A stretch of 64,000 bases of DNA from Microvelia longipes (taxonomy: Eukaryota; Arthropoda; Insecta; Hemiptera; Veliidae). Below the pieces are notes generated by a model, which made no database searches, had not been told where the DNA came from, and saw nothing but the letters and a program-made list of their open reading frames with translations. A program made the translations under genes and the position numbers. The DNA lies in NCBI GenBank assembly GCA_018340805.1, contig JACMZG010001870.1, positions 14,615,723 to 14,679,722 of the forward strand, in the 5' to 3' direction. Below, piece by piece: positions 48,050 to 61,635 of this stretch. Numbering within the stretch: the stretch's first letter is position 1; each line of letters opens with the position of its first letter.

Positions 48050-48070
48050 GAAATTCAAAATAGCAAATAG
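48050..48070 (+). CDS. eIF4G-like gene, copy 0 (3' end only)
   Basis: Only the last codons (EIQNSK and stop at 48068-48070) are visible; the rest lies in the N gap. The same codons end all other copies. Confidence 0.7.
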   Translation, partial: EIQNSK

Positions 48071-49368
48071 ATTGATTTCTAATATTTCAAATTTTGTTTT
48101 ATGCTTTGCTTTGTTCTTTATGTTGTTAAAAAACTAAAAAACCAAAAAATTGTTAATGTTTATGTTGTTATAAAAAAACTAAAAAAACCAAAAAATTGTT
48201 AATGTTTTGTTGTTATAAAAAACTAAAAAAAACCAAAAAATTGTTATGTTTATGTTGTTATAAAAAAACTAAAAAAACCAAAAAAATTTCAATTGTTTTG
48301 TTTGATTTATTATTGTTAGTTTTAAGTTAAGCTTATATTTTAGTTGGTGCTTTTCAATATTTTTTAAAAAACCAAAAAATTGTTAGTGTTATTATTCGTG
48401 TTTCATTGATAGTTAATATTATTTAAATTGTTTGTGACGTCTCTATTCGTTATGTTATTATTATTATTATTATTTAATTATTATTATTATTATTATTATT
48501 ATTATTATTATTATTATTATTATTATTATTATTATTATTATTATTATTATTAATATTTAATATTAATATTAATATTATTATTATTATATTATAATTTTAT
48601 TATATTATTATTATTATTATTATTATTATTATTATTTATTGGTATTCTTAGTATATTTACTATTATACTTCAAGTAATTACACAAGTAATTTTATTTCGA
48701 CAAATAATCGAAAATTTTATGTTTATAATGTGATTATTAGTATCACTCTAGTTATTTCTTATAGCTTATTTTAATAATTGATGTTTTTACGGCCTATACT
48801 GAAATAAATTATTTATACCATGTTTATTGATAGTTTTAAATGTTCATCTATTTTTACATTTTCCTTCTCAACACAAATTTTGTCCATATACATATCTTTT
48901 CACATTTTTGTATTTAAAGTTTCAAAATTTAATTTCTTAAGTCTCATAGATTTTGTAAGATTTATTAATAATTTTTAATTTCTATAATAACTCACACATC
49001 TCATTAATTTTATATTCACTTAATCTGGATGCATTTTCAATTAATATTCGAATTTTTATTTATATTTCCTTTTCATTATTATCCATATTTTATTAGATTT
49101 AAATTAATTTTTAATTTCTTAACCACTTCTTTTATAAAGTTACAAAAAAATGATTTTTTGAAAATATTAAAACAAATATTTCAATGTTGTTTGGGCCGAA
49201 TATGTGTTTCATGTTAAAGCTGCATTTATTCCTCTTACTTTAATTAAATTAATTTTATTTAATCTATTTTGCTAGCCAATAAAATTCTTGATAAATTGAT
49301 AATTTTCGAAAAACAATTCTTTTGAAATTATTAATTAAAGGGAAATCACTTTTTTTAATAAATTTCAA
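48071..49368 (+). repeat. Noncoding part of unit A
   Basis: Contains a ~45-bp minisatellite (about 48121-48290; core TTGTTAATGTTTATGTTGTT plus A-rich CTAAAAAAACC), a (TTA)n tract with ATATTAATATTAAT interruptions (about 48451-48650), then AT-rich leader. A CCAATAAA box is at about 49276, ~90 bp before the ATG. No TATA box can be singled out in sequence this AT-rich. Confidence 0.85.
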
Positions 49369-50577
49369 ATGTCTAATATGAATTACAGATTTTCAAGAAA
49401 TAATTACCAACAATATAATAATAGAAATCAATCTAGAGCGAAATCGAGTTTTAAACTAGAAATGAAAACGAGTTGTTCAGTAGTTGTTAAAGCTAAACCA
49501 GTTGAATTGAAAGTGAATAAAGAAAGAATTGTTTTTAGTAGAGATGAAATGTTAAAATTCATTAATACTAAACCAATGTCTAATGATTATGTGTTGAAAT
49601 TGGCAAAATCATTTGAGTGCATTGAAATTAATGAAATTGATTTAAAACGGCTTCTAAATAAAGATGGTGTTTGTGAAAAATTCATTAATAGTTCTGAAAA
49701 GAAAGTAATGATTTGAGTTGGAAATTTGGTAGCAGAATAACAAAATTAGTTCATCATGAAAATGGTTATTTGCCACCAAAATTAAGAAAATCGAAAATCA
49801 ATGATTTGAATGCTGATTTATTGGATTTTGAGAGAAGTATAAAAAGCATCCTTAATAAAATGACACCTGAAAATTTTGAGAATTGTATTTCAGAAATTAA
49901 AAGACTTCATATTAATAGTAAAGAAAAATTAAATTGTTTTGTTGAACAAGTTTTTAATAAAGCTATTCAAGAAGAATCTTATAGTAAACTTTATTCAAAG
50001 CTTACTTGTAAATTCAATGAACTTTGTGTAGATAAACAAAGTTTTCGATCAGTTTTATTAAATAAATGTCAGCAAATGTTTAAAAAGGGTCTTGACAAAC
50101 TAATTGAAGAAGTGAAAGAATTCTGGAATGAAAAAATAAGTAAAGAAACAAATGAAAGAATGAAAATAATGTATGAAGAAAAGTATTGAGGAACAAATAA
50201 ATAAAGTAAAAGATAAATTTTTCGGTAACGGAAGATTTATATGTGAATTATATTTGTCACATCAATTTCCTGACTACATTATTTTACATGTTATTAAGAC
50301 TTATCTCAAAGCTCCATTAAACAGTATTCATATTGATGCAGCTTGTAAAATGATTGTCGTTGTTGGAAAAGATTTACATTGTGAAAATGCGAAGGGTATT
50401 GACGAGTTGTTTTTAACAATTACTGACTTGTCAGTATCAAAAGATTTGGATAACAAAACTAGATTTAAATTAAAGGATGTCATTGATATGAAAAACAGAA
50501 ACTGGCAACTCAGGCAAATACAATTACTGAAGGCTGTTGTTCCGAAAACTTTAAAAGAAATTCAAAATAGCAAATAG
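49369..50577 (+). CDS. eIF4G-like MIF4G-domain protein, copy 1 (two frameshifts as read)
   Basis: About 402 codons with no intron. Residues 1-55 are Asn/Arg/Lys-rich (MSNMNYRFSRNN). At about 56-62 FSRDEML resembles the eIF4E-binding motif YxxxxL-hydrophobic with Phe for Tyr. From about residue 150 it matches the middle MIF4G domain of eIF4G: SILNKMTPENFE, FNKAIQEESYSKLYSKL, FRSVLLNKCQQMF, GNGRFICELY, VGKDLHCENAK, RFKLKDVIDMKNRNW and PKTLKEIQ. In eIF4G this HEAT-repeat domain binds eIF4A and RNA to recruit ribosomes. The MA3 and W2 domains are absent. As read, one A is missing near 49705 and one A is extra near 50181; the two cancel in length. Probably a retro-derived or truncated paralogue. 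Confidence 0.8.
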
Positions 50578-59375: not shown

Positions 59376-60581
59376 ATGTCTAATATGAATTACAGATTTT
59401 CAAGAAATAATTACCAACAATATAATAATAGAAATCAATCTAGAGCGAAATCGAGTTTTAAATTAGAATGAAAACGAGTTGTTCAGTAGTTGTTAAAGCT
59501 AAACCAGTTGAATTGAAAGTGAATAAAGAAAGAATTGTTTTTAGTAGAGATGAAATGTTAAAATTCATTAATACTAAACCAATGTCTAATGATTATGTGT
59601 TGAAATTGGCAAAATCATTTGAGTGCATTGAAATTAATGAAATTGATTTAAAACGGCTTCTAAATAAAGATGGTGTTTGTGAAAAATTCATTAATAGTTC
59701 TGAAAAGAAAAGTAATGATTTGAGTTGGAAATTTGGTAGCAGAATAACAAAATTAGTTCATCATGAAAATGGTTATTTGCCACCAAAATTAAGAAAATCG
59801 AAAATCAATGATTTGAATGCTGATTTATTGGATTTTGAGAGAAGTATAAAAAGCATCCTTAATAAAATGACACCTGAAAATTTTGAGAATTGTATTTCAG
59901 AAATTAAAACTTCATATTAATAGTAAAGAAAAATTAAATTGTTTTGTTGAACAAGTTTTTAATAAAGCTATTCAAGAAGAATCTTATAGTAAACTTTATT
60001 CAAAGCTTACTTGTAAATTCAATGAACTTTGTGTAGATAAACAAAGTTTTCGATCAGTTTTATTAAATAAATGTCAGCAAATGTTTAAAAAGGGTCTTGA
60101 CAAACTAATTGAAGAAGTGAAAGAATTCTGGAATGAAAAAATAAGTAAAGAAACAAATGAAAGAATGAAAATAATGTATGAAGAAAGTATTGAGGAACAA
60201 ATAAATAAAGTAAAAGATAAATTTTTCGGTAACGCAAGATTTATATGTGAATTATATTTGTCACATCAATTTCCTGACTACATTATTTTACATGTTATTA
60301 AGACTTATCTCAAAGCTCCATTAAACAGTATTCATATTGATGCAGCTTGTAAAATGATTGTCGTTGTTGGAAAAGATTTACATTGTGAAAATGCGAAGGG
60401 TATTGACGAGTTGTTTTTAACAATTACTGACTTGTCAGTATCAAAAGATTTGGATAACAAAACTAGATTTAAATTAAAGGATGTCATTGATATGAAAAAC
60501 AGAAACTGGCAACTCAGGCAAATACAATTACTGAAGGCTGTTGTTCCGAAAACTTTAAAAGAAATTCAAAATAGCAAATAG
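59376..60581 (+). CDS. eIF4G-like MIF4G-domain protein, copy 5 (frameshifted as read)
   Basis: One base is missing near 59466, then two near 59909 (ATTAAAACTTCAT where others have AAAAGACTT). The frame 59883-60581 covers the whole second half of the MIF4G domain to the stop. It carries a rare coding substitution, GGA to GCA at about 60234 (Gly to Ala in the FFGNGRF motif). Confidence 0.8.
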
Positions 60582-61635
60582 ATTGATTTCTAATATTTCA
60601 GAATTTTGTTTTATGCTTTGCTTTGTTCTTTATGTTGTTAAAAAAACTAAAAAAACCAAAAAAATTGTTAATGTTTATGTTGTTATAAAAAAACTAAAAA
60701 AAAAAAAAAAAATGTTTATGTTGTTATAAAAAACTAAAAAAACCAAAAAAATTGTTAATGTTATGTTGTTATAAAAAAAAAAACCAAAAAATTGTTAATG
60801 TTTATGTTGTTATAAAAAAACTAAAAAAACCAAAAAAATTGTTCAATTGTGTTTGATTTATTATTGTTAGTTTTAAGTTAAGCTTATATTTTAGTTGGTG
60901 CTTTTCAATATTTTTTAAAAAACCAAAAAAATTGTTAGTGTTATTATTCGTGTTTCATTTATAGTTAATATTATTTAAATTGTTTGTGACGTCTATTCGT
61001 TATATTATTATTATTATTATTATTATTTATTATTATTATTATTATTATTATTATTATTATTATTATTATTATTATTATTATTTATTATTATTATTATTAT
61101 TATTATTATTATTATTATTATTATTGGTAATAGTATTAATAAATTATTATTATTATTTTTATATTATTATTATTAATTATAATGTTATTATCATTATTAT
61201 TATAATTATAATAAGTATTATTCTAACGATTAAAAGCAATATTTTTTATTATATAACCATAGTTAAATTTTGTATATATTTTTATTTTCTTATTTATATA
61301 TTATTTCAATGTCAATTATCATTATTATCGGTATTATATTATTATATTATTATTATTATTATTATTATTATTTATTATATTATTGGTATTCTTAGTAATA
61401 TTACTATTATACTTCAAGTAATTACACAAGTAATTTTATTTCGACAAATAATCGAAAATTTTATGTTTATAATGTGATTATTAGTATCACTCTAGTTATT
61501 TCTTATAGCTTATTTTAATAATTGATGTTTTTACGGCCTATACTGAAATAAATTATTTATACCATGTTTATTGATAGTTTTAAATGTTCATCTATTTTTT
61601 ACCTATTTTCCTTCTCAACACAAAATTTTGTCCAT
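60582..61635 (+). repeat. Truncated last unit F
   Basis: Starts like the others after the stop codon. It has the longest minisatellite (about 60640-60845, five copies) and an enlarged TTA region (61005-61390) containing ~200 bp of sequence found in no other unit (about 61130-61330). Homology to the unit stops after TTTTGTCCAT at 61635, where the mariner relic starts. Confidence 0.85.

Follow-up and report, generated by a model that had tools for sequence, protein, structure and literature searches.

A high-copy tandem array of a short, intronless eIF4G-like gene in the Microvelia longipes genome

The genome of Microvelia longipes (Hemiptera, Veliidae) carries a head-to-tail array of a ~2.5-kb unit that encodes a short protein of the eIF4G type. 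The array was analysed in a 64,000-nucleotide stretch of contig JACMZG010001870.1 (GenBank assembly GCA_018340805.1, positions 14,615,723 to 14,679,722 of the forward strand), referred to below as the window, which is found 14.6 Mb along a scaffold of 54.2 Mb; the assembly totals 664.6 Mb in 1470 contigs. In cap-dependent translation eIF4G serves as the scaffold; it is normally encoded by a low-copy gene, and its MIF4G domain holds eIF4A and RNA. The array gene belongs to this family, occurs in many near-uniform copies, some of them intact, and is separate from the DAP5-like and eIF4G-like exons of the host genome. The best reading of the array is that of a dosage-amplified gene for a minimal eIF4G scaffold, a reading that we hold tentatively and with slightly less than even confidence.

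A head-to-tail array encoding a short eIF4G-like protein

Self-comparison of the window identified direct head-to-tail repeats of a 2491–2516-bp unit from position 48050 to 61635, with five units and one partial unit (Table 1). Both the limits and the ~2.5-kb head-to-tail arrangement agree with a first-pass annotation made from the sequence of the window. Every unit runs in the order gene end, A-rich imperfect repeats (periods of ~40–60 bp), a (TTA)n tract, a single spacer of ~0.7 kb and the gene. Unit similarity stops at 61635 on the right side, where the partial unit is present but lacks the gene body. The left limit is no true end of the array, as it lies in the tail of a coding sequence (CDS) directly after an assembly gap. 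Since the 930 N of this gap cut off the left end within the final codons of a gene, the assembled array size is a lower bound. The many near-identical units in head-to-tail order make the array satellite-like.

Table 1. Coordinates of the array, its gene copies and associated repeats in the window
Feature	Position	Strand	Remarks
Assembly gap, 930 N	47120..48049	.	Cuts the left end of the array
Unit 1	48050..50556	+	Starts within CDS tail EIQNSK*
Gene copy 1, short eIF4G-like	49369..50577	+	Frame broken as assembled; first stop codon 116
Unit 2	50557..53072	+	Direct repeat
Gene copy 2	51886..53093	+	Frame broken as assembled; first stop codon 57
Unit 3	53073..55567	+	Direct repeat
A-rich imperfect tandem repeats 3' of stop, unit 3	53151..53304	+	Periods 47–63 bp; similar rows in every unit
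(TTA)n tract, unit 3	53456..53680	+	Similar tract in all units
Gene copy 3	54382..55588	+	Broken as assembled, first stop codon 30; longest ATG frame 245 codons, 54474–55211
Unit 4	55568..58058	+	Direct repeat
Gene copy 4	56875..58079	+	Frame broken as assembled; first stop codon 116
Unit 5	58059..60560	+	Direct repeat
Gene copy 5	59376..60581	+	Broken as assembled, first stop codon 32; variants at CDS 88 (silent) and 863 (G288A)
Partial unit 6	60561..61635	+	CDS tail, 3' repeats, TTA tract, part of spacer; no gene body

The consensus of the five units has an open frame of 402 codons from ATG to stop. The chance of such a frame in random DNA of 29% G+C is ~1e-15, an arithmetic estimate from base composition. 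Pfam identified MIF4G in the encoded protein (E 1.2e-20; 74.6 bits, cut-off 30.8) and nothing else above cut-off; in particular, neither MA3 nor PAM2 was matched, and the protein stops soon after MIF4G. Among proteins of solved structure the matches were eIF4G1 (7.1e-26), eIF4GII (1.4e-25), DAP5 (2.2e-17) and yeast eIF4G (6e-6), with an identity to human eIF4G1 of ~31% over MIF4G. The earlier assignment of the second half of the protein to the eIF4G middle domain is supported by these scores, which place it inside the MIF4G family.

The AlphaFold2 model of P0001, the closest full-length relative (see below), has a MIF4G region whose blocks reach a predicted local distance difference test (pLDDT) score of 83–94, and its best PDB match is 8huj_B, the eIF4G HEAT1 domain bound to eIF4A. 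The part before MIF4G is modelled as disordered except for a low-confidence helix at residues 47–56 (pLDDT blocks of 54–56). This helix coincides with a heptad at the place where eIF4G binds eIF4E; its sequence is YSKDEIL in P0001, and the window protein has FSRDEML. The pattern Y/F-x4-[MLI]-[LMI] is found in all 20 relatives that have the N-terminal part, as checked in P0001–P0018 and P0020–P0022 (P0002 lacks that part; P0019 and P0023 were left out). The canonical eIF4E-binding motif of human eIF4G is YX4LL (PMC12621921). In most relatives one or two positions of the heptad depart from the canonical motif. The array gene is predicted to encode a 402-residue minimal eIF4G with an N/K-rich disordered start, a degenerate eIF4E-binding-like heptad, a short conserved box and MIF4G.

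Copies across the genome and the state of their reading frames

Probing the genome with the array gene gave 99–100% identity for all 40 matches scored, the best 40 of 74 candidates. A search with human eIF4G1, in which every one of the 112 candidates was scored, gave 93 passing rows. By hand count, 69 of these are array copies, complete or partial, spread over 11 contigs; 20 more are second rows from frameshifted copies, and four fall outside the array. Two further copies, one partial, were seen only in a separate reading of the contigs, which brings the total to ~70. The array takes up the whole of contig C639 and all of the stretch read of C701 (20,000 of 21,122 bases); with the unit filling these sequences and matching 69 places genome-wide, the array is not one unit multiplied by misassembly. 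The array pieces on C506, C1416 and C939 reach or nearly reach N gaps. The flanks of the pieces have no long stretch in common, the longest matches being 423 bp (C1119/C506) and 279 bp (C1416/C506) at 92–93%. The gaps, and a single N at the left junction of the piece on C558, limit any count of true loci.

Fifty-four of the copies read are full-length, defined as matches spanning at least ~1190 of the 1209 bases (47 in an earlier set; five partial copies at contig ends, at a gap or at the end of the stretch read were listed and not counted). This reading took in C1079 and C764 in part and C701 minus its last 1122 bases, and left out C634. The 54 copies differ by substitution at three CDS sites, C88T (silent), A92G (E31G) and G863C (G288A), each common to 16–19 copies on six or seven contigs, and there is not a single private substitution. 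Indels are frequent, with 122 events of which 102 concern a single base. Of the five commonest indels, three coincide with or adjoin the variable sites, a pattern that mixing of reads from different copies would give. The uniformity of the copies is an upper bound, as such mixing may hide true differences.

Six full-length copies out of 54 have an intact frame: C939 carries two of them, and C1416, C1119, C639 and C506 carry one each. The first-pass annotation had assigned a ~402-codon frame to each unit; this holds for the five-unit consensus, but none of the five window copies has it whole as assembled, the longest ATG frame there being of 245 codons. Compared with the consensus over 1188 coding bases, the five window copies have two substitutions and 12 indels. 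The two long terminal repeats (LTRs) of an unrelated retroelement in the window (15972–16728 and 21844–22603) served as control; over 778 columns they show 30 indels and not one substitution. A first, gap-shy MAFFT alignment of this pair had 31 mismatches, placed beside gaps, and 16 indel events; rescoring with one mismatch cheaper than two gaps gave 0 mismatches and the 30 indels. Per base the LTR pair is far noisier than the array copies, so that the likeness is in the kind of difference and not in its rate. The frame breaks look like assembly error because natural decay gives mostly substitutions. An interpretation of the copies as decayed pseudogenes was rejected, as they differ by indels without private substitutions, like the LTR pair.

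Relatives inside and outside the host genome

Outside the array, the human eIF4G1 query identified two places in the genome, for which the names DAP5-like and eIF4G-like denote the best match only. Three stretches at 51.57 Mb of C518, 46–57% identical to human DAP5, are split by introns; DAP5 is a gene of animals and its presence fits an animal host. At 55 kb of C579 lies a 49-residue stretch with 55% identity to human eIF4GII; it is flanked by ...TTTGTGCAG and GTAAGA..., the exon ending in ...GAAAAG directly before GTAAGA. The array CDS crosses the intron positions of both host genes unbroken, which bears out the description of a truncated, intronless eIF4G-like gene. Such a lack of introns where the parent type has them is a feature of processed retrogenes; as for a remnant of a poly(A) tail, A-rich repeats follow the stop codon and the ends of the array are largely cut by gaps. 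Of 46 residues compared in the C579 exon, 15 are common to the array and host proteins, 15 to the array protein and human eIF4GII, and 26 to the host and human proteins. This equal distance to host and human identifies the array gene, on sequence comparison, as a separate line that is either old or fast-evolving. A fresh retrocopy of host eIF4G was rejected on the 15 of 46 residues of this one readable exon. In the earlier proposal that a retrocopy or truncated paralogue was captured in a tandem repeat and amplified, the truncated, intronless and amplified gene stands; the comparison does not support a copy of the present host eIF4G, and the gene belongs to a divergent family.

Database searches gave 23 related proteins: 19 short ones (P0001–P0016 and P0020–P0022), from public contigs of 1.2–6 kb, two in which MIF4G is joined to MA3 (P0017 and P0018) and two remote ones (P0019 and P0023, the latter with a precomputed MA3). 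The source databases probably favour intronless members, which limits the meaning of missing long forms. No relative was found in genome_contigs, and NCBIfam gave nothing for P0001 and P0017. The short relatives are 37–91% identical to the query that retrieved them and keep long frames open, although P0002 lacks its start, P0006 has an apparent frame change near its end and P0016 is possibly cut off. Since these 19 other short open reading frames occur in public contigs, the array gene is, by sequence, a member of an old truncated family and not a fresh retrocopy. The contig of P0001 measures 2497 bp, about one unit, as if from a collapsed array or by coincidence. P0002, a 91% identical fragment, is from a bin named Aeromonas hydrophila and looks like animal DNA in a bacterial bin. 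When P0018 and P0017 were used to search the M. longipes genome, only array copies were present among the matches listed (the best 63 of 126 and the best 61 of 134 candidates, respectively), matches that carry no information on an MA3-bearing relative in the genome.

In the trees the family separates as one group from the human proteins eIF4G1, eIF4GII and DAP5 (support 100/99 in a first tree, made before P0020–P0023 were found, and 100/100 in a second one without P0019 and P0023), and the window protein stands beside P0001 and P0002 (100/100 and 100/99). That all short members lost the C-terminus in one event was rejected, as it lowered the likelihood by 15.8 with p 0.014 in the approximately unbiased (AU) test, in which the window protein and 18 short rows were held together against P0016–P0018 and three human rows. 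This result is to be read with the group having been named after the earlier tree was seen, with long branches and with P0016 counted as long when it may be cut off; it is a hint from sequence that the short members are not clearly one clade. Two kinds of shared tail follow MIF4G among P0003–P0005, P0007–P0010 and P0020–P0022, one group ending in RF or RL and the other having WRPR/WRPQ and ending in KH or KY. Residues 14–28 of P0016, which also has the heptad and MIF4G, are PAM2-like below threshold (19.0 bits against a cut-off of 20), a possible PABP contact.

By domain content the array protein is a member of the eIF4G/MIF4G superfamily without the MA3 of animal eIF4G, and by sequence neither DAP5 nor the mimivirus protein vIF4G is its closest counterpart. 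It resembles eIF4G1 and eIF4G3 (eIF4GI/II) in a MIF4G that aligns motif by motif and in the heptad at the eIF4E-binding place, and differs from them in its 402 residues without MA3 and in an intronless, multi-copy gene. DAP5/NAT1 (eIF4G2) also has MIF4G; it is a weaker match than eIF4G1 and eIF4GII, and the host has separate DAP5-like exons. Mimivirus vIF4G (R255, PDB 9E5A) likewise stands alone as a MIF4G protein, strongly truncated and with a degenerate eIF4E motif (PMC12621921). In contrast to the array gene its gene is viral, its motif is YX3II and its fold match is far weaker; neither a search of viral_contigs nor fold comparison placed the array protein closest to viral MIF4G proteins. 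The middle fragment released from eIF4G1 by caspase-3, which presumably extends further past MIF4G than the array protein does, offers another parallel. That fragment keeps the eIF4E site and MIF4G and lacks both the site for PABP and the C-terminal piece (PMC13081929). It is a cleavage product that also binds eIF3, whereas the array protein has its own gene. In genome organisation the tandem arrays of histone genes and ribosomal DNA (rDNA) are similar, with many near-identical copies that are hard to assemble. The same is described for co-amplified testis genes (PMC6690552). No eIF4G-type gene in a tandem array was found among the literature matches listed, which cover open-licence PMC text.

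Possible roles, rival explanations and other features of the window

As a dosage-amplified minimal scaffold, the protein would be made in quantity in some tissue or stage, its heptad binding eIF4E and its MIF4G binding eIF4A to form a bridge. The resulting stripped-down eIF4F would favour a subset of mRNAs; the array would raise dosage, and unequal exchange would keep its copies uniform. Reduced forms of eIF4G are known to work: the caspase-3 middle fragment of human eIF4G1 binds eIF4E, eIF3 and eIF4A and restores translation in human cells (PMC13081929), and mimivirus vIF4G, highly truncated and with its degenerate motif, forms a working complex that supports viral replication (PMC12621921). 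Several points weigh against this reading. As assembled, 48 of the 54 copies have a broken frame. Evidence for CDS constraint between copies is weak: three variable sites in 1209 coding bases compare with eight in 675 spacer bases, two of them doubtful, a weak difference (Fisher p 0.022, or 0.078 without the two doubtful sites). The window heptad is F-x4-M-L and not the canonical Y-x4-L-phi, and the pattern used for the relatives was devised after the alignment was seen and without a chance control, two proteins matching it twice, which makes the count descriptive. Moreover, the array protein would end at about the equivalent of human residue 1010, near or before 1020, and has probably lost the contact to eIF3. 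Tethering of human fragments gave activity when the middle fragment ended at residue 1053 and none when it ended at 1020 (PMC7470955).

The same tethering result would be in line with a close rival, in our view rather unlikely, in which the short protein is a regulator or competitor that ties up eIF4E and eIF4A in complexes unable to reach the ribosome for want of the eIF3 segment and of the MA3 and PABP contacts and, at high dosage, damps or re-routes translation, for instance in the germ line. The protein ends soon after MIF4G and has no MA3 or PAM2 match, and the N-terminal product of 2A cleavage of eIF4G1 is a dominant repressor (PMC13081929). The caspase-3 middle fragment, on the other hand, did not repress (PMC13081929), and vIF4G works despite several missing domains (PMC12621921). 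The dominant competitor suggested by the first-pass annotation may be right, yet it is one fit among others, as the protein retains an eIF4E-binding-like heptad in addition to MIF4G. A lower probability is given to a functionless protein, encoded by a relic caught in a satellite and copied along with it. Satellite-like uniformity, the prevalence of broken copies and the weakly supported constraint would all suit such a passenger. Against it, the breaks are indels without private substitution, as in the unrelated LTR pair, and the short relatives keep long open frames.

Amplification by genetic conflict, sex-linked or related to drive as in the X/Y co-amplified testis genes of Drosophila, is less probable still. 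The strength of the amplification, the uniformity of the copies and the analogy to co-amplified families (PMC6690552) might speak for it, and against it two of the array pieces lie inside the large scaffolds C518 (54.2 Mb) and C558 (64.2 Mb), the other contigs for which a length was read measuring 21–197 kb. Capture and amplification of a viral gene of the vIF4G type is very improbable. An intronless gene would fit such an origin, as would the CDS composition of 26% G+C, with a third-position G+C of 0.19 against 0.46–0.55 in the host eIF4G-like and DAP5-like exons. This origin was nevertheless rejected: no relative was found in viral_contigs, the fold match of vIF4G to the P0001 model (E 2.7e-3, 10% identity) is far weaker than that of human eIF4G1 (5.9e-11, 28%), and two family members, P0017 and P0018, carry MA3.

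The minimal scaffold could also be part of something wider. It is conceivable, if doubtful, that an animal lineage has a second, gene-encoded minimal eIF4F built on old intronless eIF4G cores, kept in homogenised rDNA-like arrays at very high dosage. Equally doubtful are the further elements of this view, namely that the C-terminal part was lost perhaps more than once and that the system is used in the germ line or in conflict with it. A stand-alone eIF4G core in dozens of near-identical copies, next to ordinary host genes of the eIF4G type, would offer a naturally occurring way to ask which part of eIF4G suffices for initiation, and would add a new example of a translation factor whose dosage is raised to an extreme by amplification.

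Other repeats in the window lie outside the array. The LTR retroelement spans 15972–22603, has LTRs of 0.76 kb and encodes fragments similar to RNase H (1.4e-9) and, weakly, to integrase (0.042) and Tf2-1 SH3 (0.0022); it is a recent insertion in a noisy assembly. A 28-base word of the LTR had no match in genome_contigs or viral_contigs; likewise, no TTAGG repeat of 25 exact bases was found and no Rfam family reached its gathering threshold. An imperfect tandem repeat array whose shifted copies are 73–79% alike is found at 8788–10294, and another with a period of 63 bp at 43797–44454 (about six copies in 44000–44364). A long simple repeat at 29973–30330 gives open frames on both strands in which I and Y alternate.

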